Positions 6,668-54,541 of a stretch of 64,000 bases of DNA are shown here, one piece after another. This stretch comes from a virus. The position numbers and the translations under genes were made by a program. The DNA lies in IMG/VR virus record IMGVR_UViG_3300047157_000111, positions 1 to 64,000 of that record; one strand, given 5' to 3'. Under the pieces are notes generated by a model. It worked only from the letters and a program-made list of their open reading frames with translations. It did no database searches and was not told where the DNA came from. Within the stretch, counting starts at the first letter, position 1; each line of letters opens with the position of its first letter.

Positions 6668-9600
6668 ATGGAAGAATTAGAATTAATCGTTCAAAGAATG
6701 ATAGACGCTGGTGAACCAGAAGAAAACATAAAAGCAGTTATTGAAGAGTATACTGCGGGAAAGCAAACAGACCCTGTAAATGTAGAGGCGAATGCGGGGT
6801 CAAAAGAAAATACGGCCTCAAACTCGGAAGATGGTTTATCGGATTCACCTTTTTGGAATCCTAATGAAGAAACTACCGTAGAAAAACCTGGTTACTTTGA
6901 AGAAAAGTTTGGTGTAAAGAATGGATTTACTAACTTCGCAGATGATTTATTTAGAGTTTGGGAAGGTGGAGCTGCTCAAGGTGGAGGTGTTGATGAAGCT
7001 TTTGATTTGTATAAGTTAGGAAAAGATATGAATCAAGACCAGCTAGAAGGTTTAATAAAATCAGGTAGAAGACTTGAAGAAGCTGGACAAACAGATGAAA
7101 TGATTTATGCTGGCCAGATGATGGAAAAGTATAAGAAAGAAGGTGATAATGGAGTTACGGCTTTTTTTAAATCCTACTTCAGCTTAGACAACCCAACGGT
7201 TATGGCTCAGTACATGACACAGTCTTTTGTTGGCATGTTAGCCTCACTTAAAGATAGTGAAGAAGTTTTAGGTACAGCATCCGCTGTAGCTGGTGGAGGT
7301 GCTATTGCTGGGGCTGGTGTAGGTTTAGTTGGTGGGCCTTTTGCTCCCGTCACATCAAGCGCTGGTGCTATAGCTGGAACTATAGGTGGTTTTATGGGTG
7401 GCTTGTCCGGCGCTATGGAAACAGGGTTGACAACAGCTCAGCTTTTACAAGAGTCGGCTACTGACGCTGGTTTAAACTGGAGCACTATGAGTGACGAGGC
7501 TAGAATAGCTTATGTTAAGAAAGTCACTAATAATGAAACCATGTTTAACGACATAAAAAGCAAAGCTTTAGCTAGAGGTATAACTATTGGTGCTATAGAC
7601 GGTATCACAGGTGTTGTAACAGGTGGTGCTAGTGGTGCCGTTAGCAAAGGTGTTGCTAAGTCAACGGCTAGCGCTTTGACTAAATCAGCAACCGTATTGA
7701 CGTCAGCAGCTACAGAGACAGCAGGTGGTTTAGCTAGTGAGTATTTTGGTCAAAAAGCAGGTGGACAAGAGTTTAACCTTGAAGAGATAATGATAGAAGG
7801 TTTTGCTGATAAATCTTTTACAGCTATAAATACTGTTAATGCATTGCGTAAAGGTAATCCTAAGTACTCTATAAACGGGGAAAAAATGAACGGTAAGCAG
7901 TTTCACGATGCGTTAAAAATGATGGACGATGAAGCGTATATTACCGCTGATATAAATGTAGAAAATTCACCAGCCGTAGAATCCGTAGTCAATAATAGAA
8001 AACAAAACATAAACTTAGATCAAGAAATAGATAGTAAAGTATCTGGTGTAGAGGATAGAGCTGAATTAATAAAGCTAGAAAAAGAAAGACTTAAGTTATC
8101 TAAGAATAAAACAAGAACAGCAAAACAAAAGCTAGCAAATATAAATGCTAAGATAGACGAAATAAACTCCAAGTATGAGGGAGCTGAAGTAGACGTAACT
8201 ATAGAGGATAGAAAGAAAGCTATAGCCAAAGCTATTGATGATAAATTTGAAGCATCGTTTAATAAAAACTTAGAAGCGGTAAAACCAGAAGCTGAAAAAA
8301 GAGGTCTTGATATTGATGTAAATGAAGACGAGGATACTTATTTCCAGAATATAGCCGATGATCAAGGTGTATCGTTAGAAGAAGCTAAGGAAAAAGCAGC
8401 TGGATCTGATGGGGTTTTTCTTGGTAAAGGTAAGATATTTATAAACAAAGTACAGGCTAAGAAAGTAGGTGCTGTATCCGTAGCTAGTCACGAGTTTTTA
8501 CACCCTGTGTTAAATGCTCTAGTTGGTGATGGTAAGCAGCAAGCTAGTTTTTTAAAGCAATTCAAGTCTAGGGTTTCTAGTAAGAATAACACTTGGGTTA
8601 TGAATGCTATGAAAGCGGGTGGTGTTGATCCTAGTAGTTATAACACTGAGTATATAAACTACTTTTCTGATGGTATACAAAAAAACAAAATAAGCTACGA
8701 TCAAAGTTTATTTGAAAAAATAGGTGAGTCTTTAAAAAGACTGTTTGTTGGTAAAGGTTTTGATAACATATCTTTTGACAATGGTAGAGATGTTTATAAT
8801 TTTCTAAAAGAATATAACACTAGCATAAAAAGTGGTAAAGTAAGTGATGTAGCATCTGAAGCTATAACTAAAGCTGAAAGTAAAAAAGATACTAAAATAA
8901 GTGACGTAGAGGCTTTGGATCAAAATGGTCAATTCTCTAGAACAGAGGACGTTCAAGAAATAAACGATATATATAACTCTAATGAAAGCAAGGAATTAGC
9001 TGGTTTTGAAATAGCTGATAAGTATAGAGGTATGGCGGAGTCTGTGTTTAACGCTTTGAAAGAAGGTAGTAATTATACACAGAACCAAAAAGAGGTTTTT
9101 GAAGGTAAGAAAGAGGACATGCTTGCTATGATGTTGTATGATAAAATACCTAGTCAGAAAGAAGACTCTAAAGCTAGGAACGTGGTTGGTTTGGTGCAAG
9201 ACTTTGAATCTAAAAAACAAAAGTACAACAACGTTGCTGCTTACGTTAATACGTTTTTTAAAGAAAGATCTAAGGAAGTATTTAAGTATTTTTCTAAAGA
9301 CGCTGTTAACGAGGGTTTAACTAAAGAAGATGGTACATTAAAGAAATCAGTTAGTAGTAAGGCAAACGAATCATCTAAAGTAGATCAGGGAAAAGAAGCT
9401 AGAAAGCTAAGTAGTTTTGATAAGTTAATGAAAGGCACAGAGTCTTTTATTGACGCATCAATTAAAAAAAATATTATAGTCAAGCTTACTAAAAACTTAA
9501 AAACAGCTGCTTTTAAAGGTAGGTTTACAGCTGAAAGCATAACCGCTGAAATAAAAAAACTAATAAAACAAGAGATAGAGAAAGCTGTTGTTAAGCGTAT

Positions 9601-12600
9601 GGGTAAGATCAGTAAGACAAAAGCTGGTGTTGTTGTTAGTGAAGAGTATAAAAGCTTTCACAGCGAAAACTTTAACGCTATAGTTAAAGCCTTACCTGTA
9701 TCTGTTATAAAAAAGAAATACTTTTCTTTGTTTGAAAAGAAAAACATAGGTAGAGAGAAAACAGCACAAGGAAACGCTATATTTGAAATAAAACCTACAT
9801 CTAAAGGTAAGTTTGGAGCATACTTTACTATAGGTGGTTATACTACGCTTCTAGCTAGACAAAAGTCTTTAGCTAACGAGATAAGTGCTGAGCTAATAAA
9901 AGATCAAGCTACTATACTAAAACAAGACATAGACTTTATGAGTGAGCTAGCTGAGGTCGCCGATATGAGTGGAGTACAAGTAACGGAGTTAGTACTGCAA
10001 ACAGAGCTAGAATCTTTAGCTAATCAATTTGATAGAAAGAAAACAGAAGCTACTAAGTTTGATAAGATACAGTTTTCTAAAAACTTTAATAACGATCAAG
10101 TAAGTGAGTTAAACAAGAAAAGCAAAAAAATAATAGAACTAAGCAAAGTGTACACCACTGCTTCATCTTTAGCAAATAAGTTGATTAAAGACAAAATAAT
10201 TGACAATAAAGTTTTTACAGTTAAAGAGATAAAAGACTGGAAAAATGAAATACAATCTAGTGTTAACGCTATATTAAGCCCTAAAAACACTTTACAAAGC
10301 AATAAGCTAGGTGAGTATGTAGAGCAAAGGGTTGGGAACAAAAGCGATCTACCTTTAATAAGAATGCTTGATTTAAAGTCTTATGACGTGGTTATTAATG
10401 GTGTAAAAAAGAAATTCTCTAGTTTCGCAGAAGCGTTTAGAGACGCTAAACTTATAGAAAGACAAAGAAAGCTTCATATTGACTACTTTGAATCAAAAAT
10501 AAAAACATTAGATGATTTAGTCTCGGTTTTAAAATGGTTTCCAGGCCACACAATATCAGCTGGGGCAAGGTATTTCATGAAGTCAAGGAACCAGTCGTTT
10601 GCTGGTATGAAAGATTTAGTAGCGGAGCTTAATAAAATACTAGAAGTTAAAGGTTGGGAGATAAAAACAAAGCTAACGATAGATGGTAAAACACAGTTAG
10701 ACAAAGTAATCAGCACAAAAACTGGAGAGGTTTTAATAGATAACAAAGATACAAAAGTTGGAGATAAGACAATAAAATCTCTTAGGAAACGTTTAACATC
10801 GTCATCTCAAGATACTAAAAAAACTGTTTTACAGTACATAAAAGAGCTTCCTCAAAGAATACAAGATGCAAATGAAGCTTGGAATACTATGATAGATTTT
10901 TTAAGTTTTGTTGACAAAAACGGTGATAACTTAGATTTTGGAATGACTATGATGAGTTTAAAATCTAACATGAGTAGTATGTTGAAAGCTGCTGCTCCTT
11001 TAACTTATTATTTTGAAGGGTCATATGTTGGTAAGCTAGTGTATGAGCATTTAATACCTACAGAGTACGTAACTCAATCTTTAACTAAGCATTTTAAAAT
11101 CAAAAAAATAAATTTAAATTCTTTACAAGATCAATACAAGGTCGCTATAGTTCCTAAAACAATGGACGACAATATAAATGGGTCTGCTAGACAGGAAAAT
11201 ATGCCTACTTACTGGCAAATTGGCATGGAAGCTTTATTAAGATATTTTGATGATTTTACTTTTGGTTTTAAAAATATGTATGCTTTAAAAAACCTCCAAA
11301 CAGGTGATGTAGTAGGTAAAAAACATGCTAAAGCTCAATTTTCTAAGACAGATAAAACTAAAGCAGAAAACTTTAATAAGGCTATGATGAACGCTAGAAA
11401 CCCTAACGCGCCTGAAAAAGGTATTAGTGTTTTTGACTTTGATGATACAATAGCTCAATCTAATAGTAAAGTTCTATACGAACTACCAGACGGTAAAAAA
11501 GGTAAAATAAACGCTACTGAGTTTGCTTTACAATCGGCAGATCTAGAAGCAGCAGGAGCTATATTTGATTTTAGTGAGTTTAGTAAAGTTATAGAAGGTA
11601 AAAAAGGACCTTTGTTTGATTTAGCTGTTAAGCGTCAGGGCAAGTTTACAAGTAAAGATATATTTATACTTACAGCTAGACCTCAAAACGCTGCTTACGC
11701 AATACATGCTTTTCTAAAAGGTTTAGGTTTAACTATACCTATAAGTAATATAACCGGTTTAGCTGATGGTAAAGCTTCTGCAAAAGCTGATTGGATAATA
11801 GGTAAAGCTGCAGAAGGTTACAATAACTTTTACTTTGCTGACGATGCTTATAAAAATGTTAAAGCTGTTCAAAAGGTTTTAGATATAATAGATGTTAAAA
11901 GAGATGTTCAGTTAGCTAAGATACAATTTAGCAGAAACATGGACGAAGCTTTTAACGATATACTAGAGCAAACTAAGAAGGTTGATTCTAATAAAAGATT
12001 TTCTAAAGCAGCTGCTAAATCCAGAGGTAGAGATATAGGTAAATGGAAATTTTTCTTACCACCTTCCGCTGAAGATTTTGTAGGTTTATTATATAACTTT
12101 TTAGGTAAAGGTAAAGTTGGTGAACAACAAATGGAGTTTTTTAACAAAGCCTTAGTACAACCGTTTGCTAGAGCAATGGATGAGCTTAATAGAGCTAAGC
12201 AAGCTATAGCTACTGACTTTAGGGCGTTAAAAAAGACTTATCCTGAGGTTAGAAAAATGCTAGCTAAAATAACACCATATAACAACTTTACATATGATAC
12301 AGCTGTAAGAGTTTATATATGGAACAAGAAGGGTATTGCGATACCAGGTTTATCTAAAACTGATATAAAAAGACTGACGGATATTGTTGAGAATAATTCT
12401 GATTTAAAAGACTTTGCTGATACTTTAGAAGTTGGGGTTGCTAACAATAATTACCCTAACGCTGGGGACACTTGGCTAGTAGGTAATATTGCTACTGATT
12501 TAAAAGATATAACAGATAAAATAGGTAGAAAAGAATTTCTACAAGAGTGGAAAGCAAACAAAGATGTTATATTTAGCACGGAAAACTTAAACAAAATAGA

Positions 12601-14020
12601 GGCTATATACGGTAGTAATTTCAGGGAAGCACTGGAAGATATGCTGTATAGAATGGAAAATGGTACAAATAGGAGTTTTGGTAGCAACAGATTAGTTAAT
12701 TCTTTCTCAAATTGGGTGAATAACTCTGTAGGTGCTATTATGTTTTTCAACATGAGATCTGCAATACTTCAGACTATATCATTTGTTAACTTTGTAAACT
12801 GGAGTGATAACAATCCTCTAAAGTTTGCTGGAGCAATATTAAACGTTAAGCAATTCTCTAGCGACTTTGTAACTTTGTTTAACTCAGATATGTTAAAGCA
12901 GAGGCGAGCTGGTATAGGTAGAGACGTTAATGAATCTGAAATAGCTGAAGCTATGAGTGGCGCTAGAAATAAACCGAGAGCTATACTTAATTATTTACTT
13001 AGAGTAGGTTTTACACCTACGCAAATAGCAGATAGTTTTGCAATATCAATGGGTGGTGCTGCTTTTTATAGAAACAGAATAAACACATACTTGAAACAAG
13101 GTATGACAAAAGATCAAGCTTTGGATCAAGCATTTAAAGACTTCCAAGAAACTACTGAAGTTTCACAACAGTCTTCAAGACCTGATATGATTAGTCAACA
13201 ACAAGCCGGTCCATTGGGTAGATTAATATTAGCTTTCCAAAATACACCAATGCAGTATACTAGGTTGATGAAAAAAGCTTTTAAAGATCTGATAAACGGT
13301 AGAGGTGATGCTAAAACTAATTTATCTAAAATAGTTTACTACGGTGTTGTTCAAAATATAATATTTGCATCCATGCAATCAGCATTGTTCGCTATGTTAT
13401 TTGATGATGACGACGATGAAGATAAATATAGCAAGAAAAAAGGTAGAATAGCAAACACAATGACAGACTCTATACTTAGAGGTTCTGGATTAGCCGGTGC
13501 TGGTATATCTACTATTAAAAATGTTATATTAAAATTCTTAGAACAAGAAGAAAAAGGTTGGAACGCGGATCACGCTTATACTGTTATTGAAGCCGCTAAT
13601 TTCTCTCCACCTATTGGTTCTAAACTTAGAAAAATGTATTCAGGTATACAGACTTATAAATTTAATAAAGATGTTATAGCTGATAGAGGTCTTTCTTTGA
13701 ATAATCCAGCGTGGCAATCAGCAGGTAACTTTGTATCCGCGGCAACTAACATACCTATGGATAGAGCTGTAAATAAGTATAATAACTTAAGAGGAGCAGC
13801 AAATAACAACAATGAAGCTTGGCAAAGAATAGCTATGGCTCTAGGTTGGAATTCTTGGGATGTAGACGCTGAAGTAGAGACTGGATATAAAGACTATAAA
13901 GCAAAACTAAAGAAAACACAAAAAAGAAGAAAAATACTAAACAAAAGAAGAGACAAAGCTAGTAATAGGCAGGAGATTATAAATAAAAGAAGAGAAATAT
14001 TAAGAAACCGAAAAAAATAA
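6668..14020 (+). CDS. Giant multidomain virion protein with HExxH and HAD-like motifs
   Basis: 2450 residues, the largest gene in the window. Residues about 200-254 form a Gly/Ala-rich hydrophobic block that could cross or disturb a membrane. HEFLH at 608-612 fits the HExxH zinc-metalloprotease motif. A HAD-phosphatase-like domain follows: DFDDT at 1590-1594, then LTARP near 1668 and FADD near 1723, in the usual order. The C-terminal third has a hydrophobic helical domain (about 2015-2060) that resembles the LPD-type domains of 'large polyvalent proteins'; this is a weak recollection. It ends with a very basic tail. It probably is an internal protein ejected with the DNA, like the giant ejected proteins of N4- or T7-like phages, but that role is inferred. 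Confidence 0.65.
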   Translation: MEELELIVQRMIDAGEPEENIKAVIEEYTAGKQTDPVNVEANAGSKENTASNSEDGLSDSPFWNPNEETTVEKPGYFEEKFGVKNGFTNFADDLFRVWEGGAAQGGGVDEAFDLYKLGKDMNQDQLEGLIKSGRRLEEAGQTDEMIYAGQMMEKYKKEGDNGVTAFFKSYFSLDNPTVMAQYMTQSFVGMLASLKDSEEVLGTASAVAGGGAIAGAGVGLVGGPFAPVTSSAGAIAGTIGGFMGGLSGAMETGLTTAQLLQESATDAGLNWSTMSDEARIAYVKKVTNNETMFNDIKSKALARGITIGAIDGITGVVTGGASGAVSKGVAKSTASALTKSATVLTSAATETAGGLASEYFGQKAGGQEFNLEEIMIEGFADKSFTAINTVNALRKGNPKYSINGEKMNGKQFHDALKMMDDEAYITADINVENSPAVESVVNNRKQNINLDQEIDSKVSGVEDRAELIKLEKERLKLSKNKTRTAKQKLANINAKIDEINSKYEGAEVDVTIEDRKKAIAKAIDDKFEASFNKNLEAVKPEAEKRGLDIDVNEDEDTYFQNIADDQGVSLEEAKEKAAGSDGVFLGKGKIFINKVQAKKVGAVSVASHEFLHPVLNALVGDGKQQASFLKQFKSRVSSKNNTWVMNAMKAGGVDPSSYNTEYINYFSDGIQKNKISYDQSLFEKIGESLKRLFVGKGFDNISFDNGRDVYNFLKEYNTSIKSGKVSDVASEAITKAESKKDTKISDVEALDQNGQFSRTEDVQEINDIYNSNESKELAGFEIADKYRGMAESVFNALKEGSNYTQNQKEVFEGKKEDMLAMMLYDKIPSQKEDSKARNVVGLVQDFESKKQKYNNVAAYVNTFFKERSKEVFKYFSKDAVNEGLTKEDGTLKKSVSSKANESSKVDQGKEARKLSSFDKLMKGTESFIDASIKKNIIVKLTKNLKTAAFKGRFTAESITAEIKKLIKQEIEKAVVKRMGKISKTKAGVVVSEEYKSFHSENFNAIVKALPVSVIKKKYFSLFEKKNIGREKTAQGNAIFEIKPTSKGKFGAYFTIGGYTTLLARQKSLANEISAELIKDQATILKQDIDFMSELAEVADMSGVQVTELVLQTELESLANQFDRKKTEATKFDKIQFSKNFNNDQVSELNKKSKKIIELSKVYTTASSLANKLIKDKIIDNKVFTVKEIKDWKNEIQSSVNAILSPKNTLQSNKLGEYVEQRVGNKSDLPLIRMLDLKSYDVVINGVKKKFSSFAEAFRDAKLIERQRKLHIDYFESKIKTLDDLVSVLKWFPGHTISAGARYFMKSRNQSFAGMKDLVAELNKILEVKGWEIKTKLTIDGKTQLDKVISTKTGEVLIDNKDTKVGDKTIKSLRKRLTSSSQDTKKTVLQYIKELPQRIQDANEAWNTMIDFLSFVDKNGDNLDFGMTMMSLKSNMSSMLKAAAPLTYYFEGSYVGKLVYEHLIPTEYVTQSLTKHFKIKKINLNSLQDQYKVAIVPKTMDDNINGSARQENMPTYWQIGMEALLRYFDDFTFGFKNMYALKNLQTGDVVGKKHAKAQFSKTDKTKAENFNKAMMNARNPNAPEKGISVFDFDDTIAQSNSKVLYELPDGKKGKINATEFALQSADLEAAGAIFDFSEFSKVIEGKKGPLFDLAVKRQGKFTSKDIFILTARPQNAAYAIHAFLKGLGLTIPISNITGLADGKASAKADWIIGKAAEGYNNFYFADDAYKNVKAVQKVLDIIDVKRDVQLAKIQFSRNMDEAFNDILEQTKKVDSNKRFSKAAAKSRGRDIGKWKFFLPPSAEDFVGLLYNFLGKGKVGEQQMEFFNKALVQPFARAMDELNRAKQAIATDFRALKKTYPEVRKMLAKITPYNNFTYDTAVRVYIWNKKGIAIPGLSKTDIKRLTDIVENNSDLKDFADTLEVGVANNNYPNAGDTWLVGNIATDLKDITDKIGRKEFLQEWKANKDVIFSTENLNKIEAIYGSNFREALEDMLYRMENGTNRSFGSNRLVNSFSNWVNNSVGAIMFFNMRSAILQTISFVNFVNWSDNNPLKFAGAILNVKQFSSDFVTLFNSDMLKQRRAGIGRDVNESEIAEAMSGARNKPRAILNYLLRVGFTPTQIADSFAISMGGAAFYRNRINTYLKQGMTKDQALDQAFKDFQETTEVSQQSSRPDMISQQQAGPLGRLILAFQNTPMQYTRLMKKAFKDLINGRGDAKTNLSKIVYYGVVQNIIFASMQSALFAMLFDDDDDEDKYSKKKGRIANTMTDSILRGSGLAGAGISTIKNVILKFLEQEEKGWNADHAYTVIEAANFSPPIGSKLRKMYSGIQTYKFNKDVIADRGLSLNNPAWQSAGNFVSAATNIPMDRAVNKYNNLRGAANNNNEAWQRIAMALGWNSWDVDAEVETGYKDYKAKLKKTQKRRKILNKRRDKASNRQEIINKRREILRNRKK

Positions 14021-25032: not shown

Positions 25033-25791
25033 CTACAGGTAATCAAGCACTTGCGAGTGGTCTACAGACTCTATTAATTTCTCAACAGCTTGCTTTTTTA
25101 ACTGCGAAACTCTTACGTAAGAGCTACTACCTTTTATGTTTAACATAGAGGCTATATCTTTTGCGGCGTGTTTTTCACAGTCTAAACCGTAGCTCAGTCT
25201 TAGTATATTATATTCCAAATCGTTTAAATGTTTCTTTAATAAACCAGTTAGGTATATGTTTAATATCTGCTGGTTGTATGGTTCTGACTTGTCAGGAATA
25301 TCATATACTGAGTTATCATCATTGTTAGGCTTCTCATCTATACTTAAAAATATAGAATTAAAAAACATAGCAACCATTTTTTCATCTTTACCGAAGTTCT
25401 TACGCATCTCGTTAAGCTTGTGCTCTGGTATACGTATATCACCTCTGTTTATATCTATAGATCTTCTTATTGCTCCTTTAATTCTTTTACTAAAAAATGA
25501 TTTCAATGTCTTCTCGTAGTCTTCAGATTTTTCTAGTGTTGGCCAATCTAATCTATCAACAGCTTTAGTTAGTCCTGCTGCTCCTGATTGTATTAAATCC
25601 ATAATACTCTGTACACCTGAAGCTTGTTGACTGGTTGAAAACTTTCTAGCTAGACTTTCTACTAAAGGCATAAACTTAGTTATAAGCTCTTCTCTAGTAC
25701 AGTCTGCCCAGTCTTTATTCTCTAGTCTTATCAAAGCTTGCTTAAGATCTTCTTTGTATCTTATATAGTTCTGTATGTTATACTTTTTCAT
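25033..25791 (-). CDS. Phage-encoded sigma-70 family RNA polymerase sigma factor
   Basis: 252 residues. Region 2 is clear: DLIQSGAAGLTKAVDRLDW matches the core-binding and -10 recognition helix, and KGAIRRSI with DIRIPEHKLNEMRK matches region 2.4/3.0 of primary-type sigma factors (compare RIP-x-H). Region 4 is LNDLEYNILRLSYGLD followed by a helix-turn-helix (DIASMLNIKGSSSYVRVSQL) that would read a -35 element. It would redirect host RNA polymerase to phage promoters. It overlaps by 14 bp the end of an HTH protein gene and lies upstream of the recombination genes. The 34-bp repeated element of the early arm is a candidate target. Confidence 0.88.
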   Translation of the reverse strand: MKKYNIQNYIRYKEDLKQALIRLENKDWADCTREELITKFMPLVESLARKFSTSQQASGVQSIMDLIQSGAAGLTKAVDRLDWPTLEKSEDYEKTLKSFFSKRIKGAIRRSIDINRGDIRIPEHKLNEMRKNFGKDEKMVAMFFNSIFLSIDEKPNNDDNSVYDIPDKSEPYNQQILNIYLTGLLKKHLNDLEYNILRLSYGLDCEKHAAKDIASMLNIKGSSSYVRVSQLKKQAVEKLIESVDHSQVLDYL

Positions 25792-26401
25792 TTTCCATGT
25801 TTAATATTTCTTTTTCGTCTCTTAACTGTTTTGTTAAGTTACGTTGAACTGTTCTTGTAGAGCAATTAAGTAGACTAGCTACCATATCCCATGTTATTTT
25901 CTTACCATAGTAAGTTAAATCTAACATAGCTTGATATATAGCTTCTTCATCTACTTTACTTGATCTACCTATTAATTTACCAACTATACTCATCTTATCT
26001 CTAGCGGTTAAACCACTATAGTCTTTAAAAATGACTTTTCGCATTTTATTCTTAGGAGGTTCACCACCGTTATTAAAAACATCGTCTATCATTTCTTGTA
26101 GTTTTTTATCACTGATAAAGAAGGTAACGAAACCATTTTCCTTATCAGCTATAAATTCATACACATAAGATGGTAATAAACCATGCTCTTGATTTAAATA
26201 GTATAGAACTAAAAAATGCCATTTTAAAGACTTGTAGGTAGTAATTTTAGCTCTACTGTTAAACAAGTGATAACATTGGTATGTACCTTGCTCGTAGAAC
26301 TGGTATTTACTAGTATCAACGCTAGGTTTATCAGTAGTAGGGTTTTGCCTATACCTTACACGCCTATCGTTAAGCCATTTTATGTTTCTCTCTTGTGACA
26401 T
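25778..26401 (-). CDS. Helix-turn-helix protein preceding the sigma factor
   Basis: 207 residues. The C-terminal part (ITWDMVASLLNCSTRTVQRNL) is a clear helix-turn-helix with a sigma region 4-like or replication-initiator-like shape. The first 130 residues are unassigned. Its last 14 bp overlap the sigma gene start, so the two are co-translated and may act together, for example as a sigma partner, an anti-sigma protein or a transcription switch. The N-terminal domain could alternatively be a replication initiator. Confidence 0.6.
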   Translation of the reverse strand: MSQERNIKWLNDRRVRYRQNPTTDKPSVDTSKYQFYEQGTYQCYHLFNSRAKITTYKSLKWHFLVLYYLNQEHGLLPSYVYEFIADKENGFVTFFISDKKLQEMIDDVFNNGGEPPKNKMRKVIFKDYSGLTARDKMSIVGKLIGRSSKVDEEAIYQAMLDLTYYGKKITWDMVASLLNCSTRTVQRNLTKQLRDEKEILNMENEKV

Positions 26402-28293: not shown

Positions 28294-28557
28294 TTATTTA
28301 AATTTATTTAGTTTATTTTCTACTTTTATTATATCTATTTTTATTTGTTCACACTTTTTATAATCTTCTTTCTGTAAATTATAATCAAGTGCAGTCATTA
28401 ATTGAGCTAGCTCAGCAAGAAGGGTTTGCTCTTCATCATCGTTGAGTGTAAATACCCACTCTTCGGGAATTGATTCAGAACTATGCCCTTCAGCTAAAGC
28501 CTCTACAACTAACTCAGCAACTCGTCTTGCTAATTTTTCAATATCGTTATCAGACAT
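28294..28557 (-). CDS. Small acidic helical hypothetical protein
   Basis: 87 residues from the ATG at 28557. The upstream ATG at 28566 lies inside the 34-bp repeated element, and this ATG also occurs in other copies where it is not the gene start, so the second Met is preferred. The product is acidic and helical, with a likely coiled coil at the C-terminus (YKKCEQIKIDIIKVENKLNK). It is immediately downstream of an early-element copy and 1 bp upstream of the ligase gene. Confidence 0.55.
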   Translation of the reverse strand: MSDNDIEKLARRVAELVVEALAEGHSSESIPEEWVFTLNDDEEQTLLAELAQLMTALDYNLQKEDYKKCEQIKIDIIKVENKLNKFK

Positions 28558-28590
28558 ATTATCCATTGTTGTTCGTATTAAGTTTGTAAA
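28557..28590 (-). promoter_or_regulatory. 34-bp early element, copy 1
   Basis: Read on the minus strand it has TTTACAAAC, then TAATACGAACAA, then the 3' block TGGATAATA. It starts directly after the stop codon of the 154-residue gene and ends at the next start codon, so it fills the whole intergenic space. The blocks are shared with six other copies in this arm. Promoter or operator function is inferred. Confidence 0.65.
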
Positions 28591-29055
28591 TTATCCTTGA
28601 TTGTTAGGGTTTTTACTCCAATCAGTGTATTCGAATTCACTAGTAGAGTATTTATCTATTAATTTATCTACAGGTAAAACAAACATATTTCTAGACTCAT
28701 AATTATTATAGCAACTAACCCAAACATCAGGTTTACCTGTCCATAATATATAAGTATAATGATGATCTATGTTTTCTACGCTAGGGTAAAGGTATTGACT
28801 ATTGTAATGAAAGTCATGAACTAAATGAGATGAAATTCTTGAAGCATCACCAAAATTAGTAAAACCTTTAATGTCTTGCATATGTTTGACCCATTTCGCT
28901 AGTTGTACACCTTGATACTCAGGGTAACCGTCGTGATGTAAATACATATTTACATAGCTTTTGTCACTGATCTCGTGTGGATGTATAGCAAAACCGTCTA
29001 CATACTTACTAGATATAGATCTGTCGACAACCATTGTTAAACTTCTTGTACTCAT
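28591..29055 (-). CDS. Conserved phage hypothetical protein (MSTR... N-terminus)
   Basis: 154 residues. The start STRSLTMVVD followed by YLHHDGYPEYQGVQLAKWVK is a pattern I recall from phage proteins of unknown function with an 'MSTR...HHDGYP' signature. It is rich in His, Tyr and Asp. It forms an overlapping operon with three upstream small genes (4-bp ATGA overlaps at 29052 and 29492), and its stop abuts early element copy 1. Confidence 0.55.
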   Translation of the reverse strand: MSTRSLTMVVDRSISSKYVDGFAIHPHEISDKSYVNMYLHHDGYPEYQGVQLAKWVKHMQDIKGFTNFGDASRISSHLVHDFHYNSQYLYPSVENIDHHYTYILWTGKPDVWVSCYNNYESRNMFVLPVDKLIDKYSTSEFEYTDWSKNPNNQG

Positions 29056-29495
29056 TGTTTTATTTTTTCGTATTCATAACCTTCTTCTATCAACTCGTTT
29101 TCAACTTGCTTTTTCATCTCGCTTGTGTAAGATTCATAGAGTTGCATAACAGCATCTTGAACGTAATCACTATCAATATCATCTACATATATTAGCTCGT
29201 TATAATCACTAGCAGCCTCAACTAACCTGTCAGCTAAGTCATGATCATAGTAGTGTACGTCTTCATTTATACAGACGCTTCTACCATCACCGCTAGTTGT
29301 AACCCAAACTTCATAGCCATCAGCTGTAGTTTCAGCGTATATACTATAGTCAGGAGTTTTATTCCAAGTGTCTGTTATATCAAACTCATAATGGTTTTTA
29401 ACAACTCTAAGAGCTTCGTCATGGTCAATATCATAGTCAATACCTATAGCTTCTAGTCTTTCGTCGATTAAGTCTTCTGTTAATATTTTTTTCAT
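29052..29495 (-). CDS. Acidic hypothetical protein
   Basis: 147 residues, strongly acidic (DIDHDEALRVVKNHYEFDIT, then IYVDDIDSDYVQDAVMQLYE). Such acidity is common in phage proteins that mimic DNA or block host enzymes, but there is no direct evidence here. It overlaps both neighbours by 4 bp. Confidence 0.5.
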   Translation of the reverse strand: MKKILTEDLIDERLEAIGIDYDIDHDEALRVVKNHYEFDITDTWNKTPDYSIYAETTADGYEVWVTTSGDGRSVCINEDVHYYDHDLADRLVEAASDYNELIYVDDIDSDYVQDAVMQLYESYTSEMKKQVENELIEEGYEYEKIKQ

Positions 29496-29707
29496 ATTTC
29501 TTTATTTATTATTTTATCTATTTTATTTATAAGATAATCCTTATCTGTCATGTTACCGTAGTATTCTTGTAAATGCCAAGCTATATCATTTAACTTGTTT
29601 TCCAAAGCTACAATATATATTTTATCATCTTGTTTAATAGGCATTTGTCTTGGATCTATCTCACCTGACTCAACCATTTCGTAATATTTTGTTACTGAAT
29701 CGCTCAT
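29492..29707 (-). CDS. Small hypothetical protein
   Basis: 71 residues, predicted helical, with no recognised motif (VTKYYEMVESGEIDPRQMP at the N-terminus). It has a 1-bp overlap with the upstream gene and a 4-bp overlap with the downstream one, consistent with a coupled early operon. Confidence 0.5.
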   Translation of the reverse strand: MSDSVTKYYEMVESGEIDPRQMPIKQDDKIYIVALENKLNDIAWHLQEYYGNMTDKDYLINKIDKIINKEI

Positions 29708-29940
29708 TACTTTACGATTTTATTACCATACATGAAACTTAAGTTATCTAGTTTCCAAGAGTCTAGATCACCATATGTCAATAGATCTCTAACTTCATCG
29801 ATGGTTAATTCTGACCACATTAATTTTGACATTAACGTGTACTTTAATCTTTTAGCTGAGCTGTATTTTCTAGCACTAGCTTGTAAACTTGTTTTAACGT
29901 CGGGCAACAAGTTGTCGTAGACGGTTTTTAGTTTTGTCAT
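29707..29940 (-). CDS. Small basic hypothetical protein under an early element
   Basis: 77 residues, helical (TKLKTVYDNLLPDVKTSLQA, then SSAKRLKYTLMSKLMWSEL). It is the first gene of a four-gene coupled cluster (29940 down to 28591), and early element copy 7 ends 28 bp before its ATG. No family is recognised. Confidence 0.5.
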   Translation of the reverse strand: MTKLKTVYDNLLPDVKTSLQASARKYSSAKRLKYTLMSKLMWSELTIDEVRDLLTYGDLDSWKLDNLSFMYGNKIVK

Positions 29941-29967
29941 TTGTAAAATTTAATTATTAATTATTAT

Positions 29968-30001
29968 TATTATCCACACTCATACGTATTATGTATGTAA
30001 A
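29968..30001 (-). promoter_or_regulatory. 34-bp early element, copy 7
   Basis: Minus-strand blocks are TTTACATAC, then TAATACG, then the 3' block TGGATAATA, with a variable spacer in between. It lies between the tRNA-Met gene (7 bp away) and the four-gene cluster that starts at 29940. It shares the TACATACATAATACG form with copies 5 and 6. Confidence 0.65.
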
Positions 30002-30008
30002 TATTAGG

Positions 30009-30081
30009 TGCGCAGGAAGGACTCGAACCTTCGACCTCGAGTTTATGAGACTCGCGAGATAACCAACTTCTCCACCGCGCA
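30009..30081 (-). tRNA. tRNA-Met (anticodon CAU)
   Basis: A complete cloverleaf is visible on the minus strand. The acceptor TGCGCGG pairs with CTGCGCA (7 pairs, one G-U). The D-arm is GAG...CTC with GG in the loop. The anticodon arm CGAGT/ACTCG closes a CTCATAA loop (CAU). The T-arm is GAAGG TTCGAGT CCTTC. The GTGGAG start of the D region and the A at position 72 resemble bacterial initiator tRNA, but position 1 is U (pairs with A72) and the three G-C pairs of the initiator anticodon stem are missing. CCA is not encoded. It could be an elongator Met tRNA or, if modified, an Ile tRNA. Confidence 0.9.
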
Positions 30082-30083
30082 AT

Positions 30084-30139
30084 TTGTAACTAGTAAGGAT
30101 TCGAACCTTATAACCGTCGTTAGCCCATATACACTACAA
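30084..30139 (-). other. tRNA-like element A (T-arm, no anticodon arm)
   Basis: A perfect T-arm (TAAGG, loop TTCGAAT, CCTTA on the minus strand) lies at 30094-30110 with the canonical TTC-R-A loop. Flanking TTGTAGT and GTTACAA could form a 7-bp acceptor-like stem (two G-U), but three bases separate it from the T-stem, so the fit is imperfect. A D-loop-like ATGGGCTAAC is present; no anticodon arm can be found. It sits 2 bp upstream of the tRNA-Met gene. It may be a degraded tRNA or a processing signal. The rest of the 195-bp gap (30140-30276) holds a weak hairpin at 30135-30162 and nothing else I can support. Confidence 0.4.
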
Positions 30140-30276
30140 GCTCGTAAAAACGTTTACTTGTACAATGTTTTGCCTGACCTAGTTGCCGCTAGCTATTCAC
30201 TTATGTATGAGAATCCATCATATAACCTATTTTTCATGATCAACTTCAAACTCATCTAATTAAGCTACTCGTCTAG

Positions 30277-30465
30277 CTACTTGCGTCGCCAAGCTCTGTG
30301 CACAGATGCGCTAACTTCTTGGCTAACAATTTGTATTGTATTACCAGTTTTATGCTCGATAATAGGTACGTAGCTGTAATCTTCTACTGTACTACATGGT
30401 ACACATGTTTTATAGCCATAATTTATTCTGATAGGATGCACTACTGTGCCGCATTTACAATACAT
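30277..30465 (-). CDS. Small zinc-ribbon-like protein
   Basis: 62 residues. The N-terminal YCKCGTVV and the later TCVPCST give two Cys pairs about 18 residues apart, as in a zinc ribbon. A basic C-terminus (VHRAWRRK) follows. It starts 28 bp downstream of early element copy 2. It may bind nucleic acid or a host protein. Confidence 0.55.
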   Translation of the reverse strand: MYCKCGTVVHPIRINYGYKTCVPCSTVEDYSYVPIIEHKTGNTIQIVSQEVSASVHRAWRRK

Positions 30466-30492
30466 ATTTATTTATTTTATTTGTTACATTTA

Positions 30493-30525
30493 TATTATCC
30501 AAACTTGTTCGTATTAAGTTTGTAA
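30493..30525 (-). promoter_or_regulatory. 34-bp early element, copy 2
   Basis: Minus-strand blocks are TTACAAAC, TTAATACGAACAA, and the 3' block TGGATAATA. It starts directly after the stop of the 30526-30714 gene and lies 28 bp before the ATG of the zinc-ribbon gene. Confidence 0.65.
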
Positions 30526-30714
30526 TTATTTTTTATTTGTACTAATATACATGTACTCAATAGCTTTACTCATTACATAACTATGTAGGTCGTTGTATTC
30601 ATCGCCTTCAACAGGTTGATCTGCTATTTGCCAATCAATACTATCATACATTATTTCTTTAGTGACGTCAGCAATACCTTGTGCTATCTCGTCTATTTCT
30701 TTCATTCTACTCAT
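30526..30714 (-). CDS. Small acidic hypothetical protein
   Basis: 62 residues, acidic and helical (MKEIDEIAQGIADVTKEIMY). It follows the 86-residue gene with one base between stop and start. No family is recognised. Confidence 0.45.
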   Translation of the reverse strand: MSRMKEIDEIAQGIADVTKEIMYDSIDWQIADQPVEGDEYNDLHSYVMSKAIEYMYISTNKK

Positions 30715-30715
30715 A

Positions 30716-30976
30716 TTATATCTTATTAAATATTGTTACTTCAACCCAACCTTTTTCACTGTGACCTGCCTCACATTTAATTCCAGCTTTAGTTAACTGA
30801 TCTTCTAGCTTTATCGCCGCATCCCATAAATCTGGTTCAGGCATCTCGTCATGGTCATCATCATACATAACCTCACCTCTACATTGATAGAATATATCAT
30901 CGTAGTCATTTTCTACGTACTCAAAATCCCAACCATTTACTCTTACGTCTTGCTTTTCTTTTAATATCTCTCTCAT
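30716..30976 (-). CDS. Acidic hypothetical protein
   Basis: 86 residues, with an acidic centre (YVENDYDDIFYQCRGEVMYD, then DDHDEMPEPDLWDAAIK). It lies in a tight run of early genes with 1-bp spacing on both sides. No family is recognised; a DNA-mimic or host-takeover role is only a possibility. Confidence 0.45.
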   Translation of the reverse strand: MREILKEKQDVRVNGWDFEYVENDYDDIFYQCRGEVMYDDDHDEMPEPDLWDAAIKLEDQLTKAGIKCEAGHSEKGWVEVTIFNKI

Positions 30977-30977
30977 A

Positions 30978-31379
30978 TTAATACATTGTTAAGTTTCTCA
31001 TGTTATAGTTTCTCTTGCAGAAGTCTATTATATATACAAGTCTAGCAAGCGGATCATTGATTAATTCTCTAGCATAACATATAGCCTTTGTAGTTTCTAG
31101 CTTACCGTCACGCATTATTGTCCATCGCTCTTCGCGTTTATATACTTTATTTAGTTGATATATTCTGTCACTTGAGTTACATCTTCTTACGTAACCTGTT
31201 TTGTAAGACGCTATTTGATCACCGTTTGGCAAAACAAATTGTCTTGTACCATTTTTCTTTTGTCTGTCAGTAGTCATTTCTATGATGTTATACTCAACAA
31301 ACATACGTTTAGCGAACAAGTCTACTAGTTCTGCACGTCTTTGTTTCCAATTCATATGCTCTTGATATAGATCTCTCAT
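30978..31379 (-). CDS. Basic hypothetical protein
   Basis: 133 residues, basic (NWKQRRAELVDLFAKRMFVE, then ATDRQKK-like stretch and VYKREERWTIMRDGK). The beta-strand-rich centre with NGDQIASYKTGYVRR may bind nucleic acid. It overlaps the upstream gene by 4 bp (31376-31379). No family is recognised. Confidence 0.5.
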   Translation of the reverse strand: MRDLYQEHMNWKQRRAELVDLFAKRMFVEYNIIEMTTDRQKKNGTRQFVLPNGDQIASYKTGYVRRCNSSDRIYQLNKVYKREERWTIMRDGKLETTKAICYARELINDPLARLVYIIDFCKRNYNMRNLTMY

Positions 31380-31642
31380 AATGTTTTTCTTATTAATATT
31401 AGTTGTTTAGTGTCGAATTTTTTATGTGTTTCTTGCCACATTTTGTTGTGTGTAAACTTTCTTGATTTAGAGAAACTAGATTTTTGACCTGTTTTAACTC
31501 TATTCCACTCGCTATCAGTTAAACCTGAGTGCATAGTGTGATGTGAATGTTTACGTCTGTGCTCGTTACCTCGTAACTTTCTCTGATTTGCAGAGTATGC
31601 ACACAGCTCTTTCATGGTTGTTGGATTAGATGTTACGCCCAT
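31376..31642 (-). CDS. Basic His/Lys-rich hypothetical protein
   Basis: 88 residues, very basic (RKLRGNEHRRKHSHHTMHSG, then KTGQKSSFSKSRKFTHNKM). It overlaps the upstream gene by 10 bp and the downstream gene by 4 bp, so translation is coupled. It could bind nucleic acids. No family is recognised. Confidence 0.5.
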   Translation of the reverse strand: MGVTSNPTTMKELCAYSANQRKLRGNEHRRKHSHHTMHSGLTDSEWNRVKTGQKSSFSKSRKFTHNKMWQETHKKFDTKQLILIRKTL

Positions 31643-31827
31643 GGATTATCTGATTTTTGTACATAGGTTAAACCTTTGTAGTTGAACCAATCGGTGATTC
31701 CGTCTTGATCTTTGTCTTCATTGTAAATAAAAGCAAACTTTTTAGGTAGACTGCTAACTGAGTAGCCTTTGTAAGTTTTGTTGTTAATTTTAATTGTTGA
31801 CGAATTGATAAATTTTATTGATTTCAT
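31633..31827 (-). CDS. Small hypothetical protein under early element
   Basis: 64 residues, beta-rich (KSIKFINSSTIKINNKTYKG, then NEDKDQDGITDWFNYKGLTY); the DKDQDGITD stretch resembles a calcium-binding dockerin-like loop. It starts 17 bp after early element copy 3 and is the first gene of a coupled cluster down to 30526. Confidence 0.5.
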   Translation of the reverse strand: MKSIKFINSSTIKINNKTYKGYSVSSLPKKFAFIYNEDKDQDGITDWFNYKGLTYVQKSDNPWA

Positions 31828-31843
31828 ATTGTATATTTGATTA

Positions 31844-31877
31844 TATTATCCATTACTGTTCGTATTTGGTTTGTAAA
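31844..31877 (-). promoter_or_regulatory. 34-bp early element, copy 3
   Basis: Minus-strand blocks are TTTTACAAACC, AAATACGAACAG, and the 3' block TGGATAATA. It lies inside the 3' end of the 48-residue gene (31846-31992), whose stop codon is the TAA of the TGGATAATA block. An ATG in the element opens a 9-codon frame that ends in ATGA over the next gene's start. Confidence 0.65.
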
Positions 31878-31992
31878 ATAACATAGAATTTAGCTCACTG
31901 TTATTATACTTTGCCCAATATTGTCTTTCTACGGCTTCTATTTGAGCTCGTGAGATCTTAAAGAGTGGTTTATGTGAGTGTTTTCTTTTCAT
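31846..31992 (-). CDS. 48-residue basic protein ending inside an early element
   Basis: It starts with ATG at 31992 (ATGA overlap with the upstream gene) and ends with the TAA of early element copy 3, so its last residues (FYKPNTNSNG) are encoded by the element. The rest is basic and helical (KRKHSHKPLFKISRAQIEAV). Coupled overlap supports it; no family is recognised. Confidence 0.5.
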   Translation of the reverse strand: MKRKHSHKPLFKISRAQIEAVERQYWAKYNNSELNSMLFYKPNTNSNG

Positions 31993-32198
31993 CTGTAGTC
32001 AACATTAGGTTTAATATTCGCTGCAGTTGCTTGTCTGAACTCCCACTCACGTTGTCTGTAAGCGTGATCAGTACACCATTTTCGCCAAGCTTTACTTACA
32101 GTATTGTTAACACCGTATTTAGCTTCGAACTCTTCGACTTGTCTAAGTTTAGCGTCGATCTGTTCTTGAGGGTAATCTTTATATTTAGTAGAAGTCAT
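31989..32198 (-). CDS. Small charged hypothetical protein
   Basis: 69 residues, charged and helical (YPQEQIDAKLRQVEEFEAKY, then VSKAWRKWCTDHAYRQREWE), rich in Trp and Arg in the second half. It overlaps the downstream gene by ATGA and the upstream 39-residue gene by 14 bp. Confidence 0.5.
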   Translation of the reverse strand: MTSTKYKDYPQEQIDAKLRQVEEFEAKYGVNNTVSKAWRKWCTDHAYRQREWEFRQATAANIKPNVDYR

Positions 32199-32304
32199 AG
32201 TATATATCTAAAACGGTTGATCTTTGTTCTGAAGTGAGTTTACTGTAGCACTTACCGTATTTTCTGTAGCTTATTTTAAGCAGGTATGTATTCATATGTG
32301 ACAT
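32185..32304 (-). CDS. 39-residue hypothetical protein
   Basis: It starts with ATG at 32304 and overlaps the next gene by 14 bp. The product (SHMNTYLLKISYRKYGKCYS) is Tyr-rich with a C-terminal helix. It is 5 bp from the end of the 45-residue gene upstream. Evidence is limited to tight packing. Confidence 0.4.
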   Translation of the reverse strand: MSHMNTYLLKISYRKYGKCYSKLTSEQRSTVLDIYYDFY

Positions 32305-32309
32305 AGTTA

Positions 32310-32447
32310 TTATTTTTTATTAGTTAATTTATAGAACTCTATTCTGTCAAGAACATCTTGTCTAGTTATTTTATTTTCCATTTGTAATAGTATATCGTTT
32401 GACATATCTATTTTTTTACCGTTAGAGCAAGTTAGTATATATTGCAT
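32310..32447 (-). CDS. 45-residue hypothetical protein under early element
   Basis: It starts with ATG at 32447, which is 23 bp downstream of early element copy 4, and ends 5 bp before the next small gene. The product (QYILTCSNGKKIDMSNDILL, then QDVLDRIEFYKLTN) is plausible as a short helical protein. No family is recognised. Confidence 0.45.
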   Translation of the reverse strand: MQYILTCSNGKKIDMSNDILLQMENKITRQDVLDRIEFYKLTNKK

Positions 32448-32469
32448 ATTATTATTTATTAGTTATTAT

Positions 32470-32503
32470 TATTATCCATTAGTGATCGTATTTAGTTTGT
32501 AAA
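32470..32503 (-). promoter_or_regulatory. 34-bp early element, copy 4
   Basis: Minus-strand blocks are TTTACAAAC, AAATACGA, and the 3' block TGGATAATA. It begins 2 bp after the stop codon of the 49-residue membrane protein gene and lies 23 bp before the start of the 45-residue gene. Confidence 0.65.
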
Positions 32504-32505
32504 TA

Positions 32506-32655
32506 CTATCCATATATTCCAAAACTATTTGGCGCTCCATTTTGTATCATATCTACTACTAAAGCGATTGATCCACATATTACTAATGTTAATTGAGCGT
32601 AAGCGATAATACCAATTACTATATTTAATACTTTGTGATGATGAAATTTTCTCAT
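32506..32655 (-). CDS. 49-residue single-TM membrane protein
   Basis: It starts with ATG at 32655. The basic N-terminus (RKFHHHKV) is followed by one or two hydrophobic segments (NIVIGIIAYAQLTLVICGS). It could be a small membrane-located host-takeover or lysis-inhibition factor. It ends just before early element copy 4. Confidence 0.5.
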   Translation of the reverse strand: MRKFHHHKVLNIVIGIIAYAQLTLVICGSIALVVDMIQNGAPNSFGIYG

Positions 32656-32689
32656 AATTTATTTATTTATTTATTTATTTGTTATTAGT

Positions 32690-32729
32690 TGACATGGTGA
32701 GAATCGAACTCACATTAACCATTATGTCA
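32690..32729 (-). other. tRNA-like minihelix B (acceptor plus T-arm)
   Basis: On the minus strand TGACATA pairs with CATGTCA (6 pairs, one mismatch), and directly next to it a perfect T-arm (GTGAG, loop TTCGATT, CTCAC) stacks without a gap. A 9-base linker ATGGTTAAT holds the D-loop-like GG. There is no anticodon arm. A 7-bp hairpin (ACTTGTT/AACAAGT, 32732-32765) lies on its 5' side. This is the shape of a tRNA acceptor-T minihelix, the minimal RNase P substrate. It lies in a 133-bp non-coding gap between two early genes. Confidence 0.5.
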
Positions 32730-32788
32730 TTACTTGTTCACATTTTTATACTTATAGAAACAAGTGGAACTCAAAGTTGATTGATAGT

Positions 32789-33019
32789 TTACTGTACTTC
32801 GACTATCTCTCTCGCGATCACTGGAACACTAGTTGAAGAAGTGTAAGATTTGTACTTAAGAAAACAGTTCATGTTACTTAGTTTATCTTTCATTACTTCA
32901 TACACTTTATCGTGATTGTAAGTGACTGACTTTCCATTTTTGAAGTTGACAGTGATTGTTTGATTTTTTCCGATTAGTGATTGTCTGATGACAAATCTTT
33001 TTGAAATTAAGTTACTCAT
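32789..33019 (-). CDS. Small basic hypothetical protein under early element
   Basis: 76 residues, basic and beta-rich (RFVIRQSLIGKNQTITVNFK, then KSVTYNHDKVYEVMKDKLSN). It lies 49 bp downstream of early element copy 5. The tRNA-like minihelix B follows its stop after 60 bp. No family is recognised. Confidence 0.5.
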   Translation of the reverse strand: MSNLISKRFVIRQSLIGKNQTITVNFKNGKSVTYNHDKVYEVMKDKLSNMNCFLKYKSYTSSTSVPVIAREIVEVQ

Positions 33020-33067
33020 AGTTGTAAGAATTATTTAGTTATTATTATTATTTGTTTGTTACATAGA

Positions 33068-33100
33068 TATTATCCATATCCATTCGTATTATGTATGTAT
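33068..33100 (-). promoter_or_regulatory. 34-bp early element, copy 5
   Basis: Minus-strand blocks are ATACATAC, ATAATACGAATGG, and the 3' block TGGATAATA. It lies 8 bp after the stop of the 40-residue gene and 49 bp before the next start, the longest spacing of the set. Confidence 0.65.
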
Positions 33101-33108
33101 TATTATTA

Positions 33109-33231
33109 TTATAGATTTATTATTATTTCTTCATATAAATAATCTTGAATCATTTCATTATATTTTTCTCGACAGTCGGTCAATGGATTGAATGGAAATT
33201 CTGATTTGATTTGATTGATTAATTCTTTCAT
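33109..33231 (-). CDS. 40-residue hypothetical protein, first gene of the leftward arm
   Basis: It starts with ATG at 33231, which is 26 bp downstream of early element copy 6. The product (KELINQIKSEFPFNPLTDCR, then EMIQDYLYEEIIINL) is an acidic helical peptide. It is the first gene leftward of the divergent control region, where the earliest transcripts are expected. No family is recognised. Confidence 0.45.
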   Translation of the reverse strand: MKELINQIKSEFPFNPLTDCREKYNEMIQDYLYEEIIINL

Positions 33232-33256
33232 ATTTATTATTTGATGGTTACGATTA

Positions 33257-33290
33257 TATTATCCATATTCATTCGTATTATGTATGTAAA
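33257..33290 (-). promoter_or_regulatory. 34-bp early element, copy 6
   Basis: Minus-strand blocks are TTTACATAC, ATAATACGAATG, and the 3' block TGGATAATA. It is the copy closest to the divergent control region and precedes the first leftward gene by 26 bp. Confidence 0.65.
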
Positions 33291-33319
33291 AGGTATATGA
33301 ATTGTTTAGTTGTAGAATA

Positions 33320-33415
33320 TGTCATGATGTCATACCACACTATGTCACAATGTCACATTCATAATAGTTTAAGTACTATGACAAGATGTCATGATCTACT
33401 AGTGTCAATGTGTCA
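33320..33415. repeat. TGTCA iterons in the divergent control region
   Basis: The pentamer TGTCA occurs at 33320, 33328, 33343, 33351, 33387, 33403 and 33411, with one inverted copy (TGACA) at 33379, all within 96 bp and mostly inside the longer form ATGTCAT or ATGTCAC. Two more copies occur at 33619 (inverted) and 33657. Such a cluster in a long non-coding divergent region fits iterons bound by a replication initiator or a master regulator. Function is inferred. Confidence 0.55.
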
Positions 33416-33480: not shown

Positions 33481-33577
33481 GGAGGGGGTATATAGGTGGG
33501 GGCATGGAATTACAGGGCGGGGCTGGTCAAAAACATTTGACTTTGGTTTTAGTGTTGAAGGGTGGGGGGGAGGGGGG
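33481..33577 (+). other. G-rich tract with G-quadruplex motif in the control region
   Basis: The plus strand has GGAGGGGG (33481), GGTGGGGG (33495), GGGCGGGG (33515) and a perfect four-run motif of GGG-T-G7-A-G6 at 33560-33577. This is striking in a genome of about one-third GC. The tract lies between the TGTCA iterons and the first rightward gene and would give a G-quadruplex on the plus strand when unpaired. The 410-bp region 33291-33699 contains no convincing gene. Confidence 0.55.
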
Positions 33578-33699
33578 AACGCTATACCCCTATATATCTG
33601 ATACTTTTCAAAAAACCATGACAATAGCCTATAAGAGTATATAAGTAGGAGGCTAATGTCACACTTTAAAATAATTTAAAACTATGTGATTATAGTGAT

Positions 33700-54486: not shown

Positions 54487-54541
54487 ATAACGTGAAAATA
54501 GCGTGATAATATAAACATAGAACAATAAATAAAACAAAACA

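Follow-up and report, generated by a model that had tools for sequence, protein, structure and literature searches.

A 34-bp element repeated along one gene arm of an uncultured phage is probably a promoter for the phage's own sigma factor and a putative helix-turn-helix partner

At the middle promoters of phage T4 (MotA/AsiA) and the cII promoters of lambda, recognition is divided between sigma, which contacts the -10 element, and a phage protein that binds a box near -30 to -35. In the split sigma systems T4 gp55/gp33 and Bacillus SigO/RsoA, a small sigma factor and a partner protein act together. Lytic phages such as phiEco32 and 7-11 encode a sigma factor of their own for a large set of promoters whose consensus is private to the phage (TAATGTATA for phiEco32; PMC4331800), and flavobacterial sigmaA reads TAnnTTTG (PMC9723704). 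Here, we analyzed a 64,000-nucleotide (nt) stretch of phage DNA (positions 1 to 64,000 of IMG/VR record IMGVR_UViG_3300047157_000111, hereafter the window), in which a 34-base-pair (bp) element recurs seven times on the minus strand. Our findings suggest that this element is probably a phage-specific promoter, which would be read by a sigma factor encoded in the window with the help of a neighboring 207-residue protein, p207. Phage sigma factors with private promoters are already known; new are the element, its three-block layout, the linked p207 and the exchange of the upstream box upon loss of p207.

Both strands of the window were scored against the pattern TTTACAWACNWAATACG-N8-TGGATAATA, which has 25 specified positions. 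All seven copies lie on the minus strand, five matching at 25/25 positions and the other two at 24 and 23, and the best place outside the element, on either strand, reached only 19/25. With up to three mismatches allowed, the window gave seven matches versus none in 100 dinucleotide shuffles, and an exact-copy search of the full 68,206-base record returned these seven copies and no others. Copy 1 occupies 33257..33290 (read 33290-33257; TTTACATACATAATACGAATGAATATGGATAATA), with a predicted transcription start (+1) at 33251. Copy 2 (33068..33101; AATACATACATAATACGAATGGATATGGATAATA; predicted +1 at 33062) lies upstream of gene 32789-33019, and copy 3 spans 32470..32503 (TTTACAAACTAAATACGATCACTAATGGATAATA; predicted +1 at 32464). 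Upstream of gene 31633-31827 is copy 4 (31844..31877; TTTACAAACCAAATACGAACAGTAATGGATAATA; predicted +1 at 31838), and upstream of gene 30277-30465 is copy 5 (30493..30526; ATTACAAACTTAATACGAACAAGTTTGGATAATA; predicted +1 at 30487). Copy 6 (29968..30001; TTTACATACATAATACGTATGAGTGTGGATAATA; predicted +1 at 29962) sits directly behind a tRNA-Met gene and upstream of gene 29707-29940. In copy 7 (28557..28590; TTTACAAACTTAATACGAACAACAATGGATAATA), for which the predicted +1 is 28551, the element overlaps the start predicted for gene 28294-28566; this copy stands at the head of the stretch that runs from the ligase gene to p207 and the sigma factor. Start codons follow the element at a distance of 0-48 bp, and the onset of the element often falls directly at the stop codon of the preceding gene. 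An earlier reading of the letters alone (the sequence-only reading) had listed the same seven copies, at 0-49 bp from start codons and with a variable block between core and 3' end, and had proposed a whole-genome search; its positions were all confirmed, the search of the record added no further copy, and the variable block corresponds to eight variable bases in the family consensus. An apparent 11-bp direct repeat (TACAAAC/TACGAAC) within the element was set aside, as its halves showed no clear covariation, and its appearance was not used as evidence.

The element belongs to a large family. Loci of related IMG/VR phages, fetched by ligase homology and by pattern, contained 716 copies (549 after thinning) with the consensus wTTACAAACtaAATACGA-N8-TGGATAATA-tAAAtRtAA, followed by an A-rich tract. 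Conservation thus runs past the 34 bp to about position 43-47, and GATAATA is conserved at 99-100%. In a pattern scan, the core AATACG-N8-TGGATAATA was present in at least 118 IMG/VR stretches. AATAC-N11-GATAATA, matched exactly and with the upstream box left out, occurred in 42 of 48 full records, nearly always on one strand per genome, and the reversed pattern gave about one match in all of these records together. In the relatives, the strand that carries the element is the strand of the DNA-metabolism genes. Conservation in relatives, one half of the test that the sequence-only reading had set for its own proposal, is borne out by these counts. A variant pattern with T at position 27 had no viral matches as written, and no description of the motif was found in the open-access literature. 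A further variant lineage is represented by a 20-kb contig binned as Sphingobacteriales (L212; G009:C315). Its copies, about ten in number, have TTTGATAATA and TTACAAAAC boxes, and the contig also encodes a homologue of gene 32789-33019; no sigma gene was seen on this fragment.

Where transcription would begin can be read from the aligned copies. Taking GATAAT (element positions 28-33) as -12 to -7 places +1 at position 40. Among 538 copies, 99.1% have A or G at this position, which lies 6 nt past GATAAT, whereas the purine shares are 21% at position 39 and 44% at position 41; in the window, 7/7 copies have a purine at position 40. When frames of at least 45 codons were considered, 62 opened with an ATG at position 40 versus 15 in total at positions 34-39; past position 40 start codons spread broadly, with a second hump near 59-64. 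A separate, earlier count showed the spike as well. Such a distribution is what a transcription start at position 40 would predict, since a gene that depends on this promoter alone can have no start codon ahead of +1, while leaderless genes open exactly on it; together with the purine, the spike marks position 40 as the likely transcription start. As in promoters of the sigma-70 family, the -10 hexamer has a conserved A at -11 and T at -7 (positions 29 and 33, each at 99-100%) and is followed at 6-7 nt by a purine. The layout is not the ordinary one with a -35 hexamer 16-19 bp before the -10 element, as the distance to GATAAT measures 21 bp for TTTACA and about 10 bp for AATACG. Nor is the box of Bacteroidota sigmaA present, since the consensus at -12 to -5 reads GATAATAt and not TAnnTTTG. 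The sequence-only reading had noted both the overlong spacing and the missing TAnnTTTG, and its proposal of a phage-specific promoter is favored by the latter, by the purine at +1, the ATG spike and the conservation as well as by the sigma co-occurrence described below. It has to be corrected in two respects: GATAAT would be the -10 element, 6 nt ahead of the start, and the TTTACA block is probably no ordinary -35. In 149/549 copies of relatives, positions 38-43 read ATGTAA, a start codon directly followed by a stop. With +1 at position 40, such copies would have a G start rather than a mini-ORF (open reading frame).

The same alignment bears on two other explanations. The element might act as an mRNA leader or translation element, or as an operator without promoter function, as also considered in the sequence-only reading; its position 0-48 bp before start codons, the A-rich sequence behind it and iteron-like repeats near the first copy would suit such a role. 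We consider this very unlikely, as hardly any start codon precedes position 40 and many fall exactly on this purine, which puts the element upstream of the inferred start. Furthermore, no hairpin-type covariation between column pairs was found among the 549 copies; an RNA hairpin was rejected on this ground, and the excess covariation came from neighboring columns and from the surroundings of +1, in which sequences of two classes are mixed. An operator alone would leave both the -10/+1 signature and the link to the sigma factor unexplained. We give even less credence to a promoter for a phage-encoded or virion RNA polymerase of the T7 or N4 type. The fixed spacing would fit, as would the TAATACGA part of the element, which is identical over eight bases to the upstream part of the T7 promoter. 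However, both the spike of start codons and the place of strongest conservation suit a -10 element and not a T7 +1 at GATAATA, and the absence of long-range pairing covariation speaks against an N4-type hairpin. A search for a single-subunit RNA polymerase (PF00940) gave no match in 8 records, with none in control genomes either and no positive control, and the 2450-residue virion ORF has no Pfam RNA polymerase match. This virion-arm protein (6668-14020, plus strand) is without any Pfam match; by eye, it displays HEFLH (peptidase-like) and DFDDT (HAD-like) motifs and no RNA polymerase signature.

The phage has its own sigma factor, as the sequence-only reading had stated, a protein of 252 amino acids encoded at 25033..25791 on the minus strand with sigma-70 family regions 2 to 4. 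It reaches the cut-off of the general sigma70-ECF superfamily (51.8 vs 42.9 bits) and falls short of that of the FliA_WhiG family (44.2 vs 189.6 bits), and its Pfam matches to regions 2 and 4 are just below cut-off. The best solved relative is sigma-28 FliA (E 3e-9). In the structure model of the protein (predicted local distance difference test, pLDDT, 75), region 2 superposes on sigma structures with about 2.2 Å over 98 residues (Z about 12); with this fold and the helix-turn-helix of region 4, the protein has the hallmarks of the sigma-70 family. Region 2.4 reads RIKGAI, as in FliA. The FliA -10 element is GCCGATAA, which has GATAA in common with the element described here. A sigma gene followed the ligase gene in 75 of 80 homologous loci, which is every locus that reaches this gene (74 close homologues and one, L074, with 26% identity); in the other five, the sequence ends within 0.9 kb behind the ligase. 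Seven of the homologous loci lack the element, and their sequence begins at or near the ligase. Correspondingly, the relatives phi38:1, elemoE and MW202828 have neither element nor sigma, so that the two go together apart from single copies in some host chromosomes. These findings argue strongly that the phage sigma factor would be what reads the element.

The gene for p207 (25778..26401, minus strand) overlaps the sigma gene by 14 bp and encodes a C-terminal helix-turn-helix, in which R183, T184 and R187 are invariant; we propose that the protein co-recognizes the TTACAAAC box. A fold search returned general helix-turn-helix matches only (residues 145-204), with no whole-protein relative standing out among the compared chains. 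Two loci without p207 (L050 and L253) have TCGAA-like boxes in place of TACAAAC, and a pattern scan found TCGAA-type promoters in 32 stretches. p207 was present in 0/30 TCGAA-type contigs searched, while the sigma factor was found in all 7 of those reaching the sigma gene (E below 1e-117); in TACAAAC-type controls, both proteins were found in 8/8. In the TCGAA clade, AATAC, GATAATA and the start region are unchanged, and the alterations are confined to the upstream box and the base that directly precedes GATAATA. The phages without p207 form one clade, joined by their nearest relative with p207 (L302), which has TACAAAC. Covariation adds a little: for the base at position 27, the best partner is p207 residue 117, above any column of sigma, ligase, Erf or exonuclease, and in a tree-aware test the top four columns all belonged to p207, residues 188 and 190 lying at or just after the recognition helix. 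We take the box change as moderate evidence that p207 may be a second recognizer of the promoter, and only moderate because the box swap is a single event, or few. The far-upstream TTTACA block is probably a box that follows the neighboring gene p207 and not an ordinary -35 hexamer. A less likely but serious alternative is that the phage sigma reads the whole element by itself, with region 4 on the upstream boxes and region 2 on GATAAT, and that p207 is an unrelated neighbor. The sigma factor is the strict partner of the element, the promoters persist in the clade without p207, and the strongest covariation of position 17 is with sigma residue 230, which belongs to region 4.2. Yet no clade other than the one without p207 shows the change from TACAAAC to TCGAA, the upstream blocks cover about 17 bp at 9-21 bp from the -10 element, which is no standard sigma footprint, and the position-17 link is not at the top of the tree-aware ranking.

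A second conserved element, GTGAAAATAGCGTGATAATATAA(ACATAG), lies ahead of a late gene on the plus strand (54492..54514) and is a candidate late promoter. It is laid out as GTGAAAATAGCGT followed by (A/G)ATAATATAA and is very strongly conserved, occurring once per contig in 90 IMG/VR stretches. It has the GATAATATAA core, or -10, in common with the early element and a different upstream box, which would fit one sigma factor working with different upstream helpers for the early and the late class. Several contigs with the late-strand element show no sigma gene, possibly because they are fragments. In a tentative two-protein reading for this abundant family of uncultured phages, which to us is quite possible, sigma would bind GATAAT and the helix-turn-helix partner a modular box; loss of the helper would go along with a box swap at every promoter, and as the late promoter pairs the same -10 with another box, the choice of box could set the timing.

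If the element is a promoter of phage sigma and p207, host core RNA polymerase carrying the phage sigma would read the -10 element at -12 to -7, and p207, as the most likely candidate, would recognize or help to recognize the TTACAAAC box, which spans -38 to -31, and perhaps also position -13, with AATACGA at -28 to -22 as a third contact. Transcription would start at position 40, mostly on a purine, giving a leaderless mRNA where the ATG is at this position and otherwise an A-rich leader of about 10-45 nt. The seven promoters stand in series along co-directional small genes that lead to the ligase, p207, sigma, recombination and nucleotide-metabolism genes. The first sigma and p207 would have to come from another source, either a weak or unusual host promoter or a virion-carried protein; the sigma-loaded polymerase would then fire the seven promoters and amplify its own region after the first pulse. 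Because the sigma gene is downstream of all seven promoters, the circuit would feed itself.

Several observations weigh against this picture. The conserved block AATACGA (-28 to -22) corresponds neither to a standard -35 box nor to any demonstrated p207 site. At copy 7, the predicted ATG of the gene is 6 nt upstream of the predicted transcription start. As to the source of the first sigma, host-type promoters (TTG-N17-23-TAnnTTTG) occur only 8 times in the window and never ahead of the early genes, and they were not clearly enriched in the upstream gaps of six genomes. With respect to p207, the TCGAA clade represents essentially one evolutionary event, or few, no dedicated shared gene that could replace the regulator appeared in the 20 kb examined, and the tree-aware p-values of 0.002-0.009 fail correction for 696 columns. 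Finally, a few Flavobacteriaceae chromosomes have one or two near-perfect copies and no detected sigma factor of this kind.

These chromosomal copies stand ahead of unrelated genes on contigs of Polaribacter and others (L217, L218, L225, L219, L220, L221, L222 and L223), and several have extra bases in common (CGAGA, GATAATAGAT). No sigma homologue was found at E 1e-3 in the host genomes concerned, in a search without positive control. The copies could stem from phages, respond to them or point to a host factor. They are one reason to consider that host RNA polymerase with sigmaA reads the site, p207 acting as activator and the phage sigma serving other genes; another is that phages usually rely at first on host polymerase to transcribe the genes of their early arm. 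We regard this as unlikely: TAnnTTTG is missing from the right place and the motifs of Flavobacterium psychrophilum do not fit (PMC9723704), a match with at most one mismatch occurs in only 5 of 299 family genomes, and the sigma factor is retained when p207 is lost.

The large terminase, portal, GroEL and GroES place the phage near Cellulophaga phi38:1, the Flavobacterium elemo phages and relatives, from which we infer a flavobacterium as host. The minus arm holds the small genes, ligase, p207, sigma, Erf annealing protein, exonuclease, primase-helicase, thymidylate synthase and ribonucleotide reductase; the plus arm holds chaperonins, lysis and virion genes. Between the divergent arms, just upstream of the first promoter, iteron-like TATGTCATGATGTCAT / TGACAT repeats at 33312-33400 are a candidate replication origin or operator. 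The divergent intergenic region also contains a long C-rich tract (33540-33580; gttcccccctcccccccaccc in the minus-strand reading), unusual for a genome of 35% G+C.

Hardly any transcription has been mapped in phages of marine and freshwater Bacteroidota, and the host promoters there are unusual. A single motif now allows transcription starts to be predicted to the base for well over a hundred contigs of uncultured phages, and it names the putative sigma factor and points to a partner. The natural variants, TACAAAC with p207 and TCGAA without it, make up a direct test set for the evolution of promoter specificity, and the promoters might be of use as orthogonal parts in Bacteroidota genetics.

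Compared with known systems, the phage resembles phiEco32 and 7-11 in having its own sigma, many promoters of private consensus and a genome in two divergent gene arms. Those phages use one short block for middle and late promoters alike, whereas here there are three blocks, a GATAAT -10 element and a linked gene for a putative helper, and the many copies are confined to one arm. FliA is the closest solved sigma, with RIKGAI in region 2.4 and GATAA in its -10 element, but the family cut-off is missed and the upstream boxes do not match TAAA at the FliA spacing. As with gp55/gp33 and SigO/RsoA, a sigma factor is paired with a putative partner, here from overlapping genes and with no homology shown. 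MotA/AsiA and cII work with bacterial sigma-70, while here a phage sigma would act with p207, for which a sequence relation to MotA or cII is not shown. With the sigmaA promoters of Bacteroidota (TTG ... TAnnTTTG), the element likely has the host core enzyme in common as well as A-rich leaders without a Shine-Dalgarno sequence; in place of their TAnnTTTG box at -12 to -5, it has its own GATAAT.

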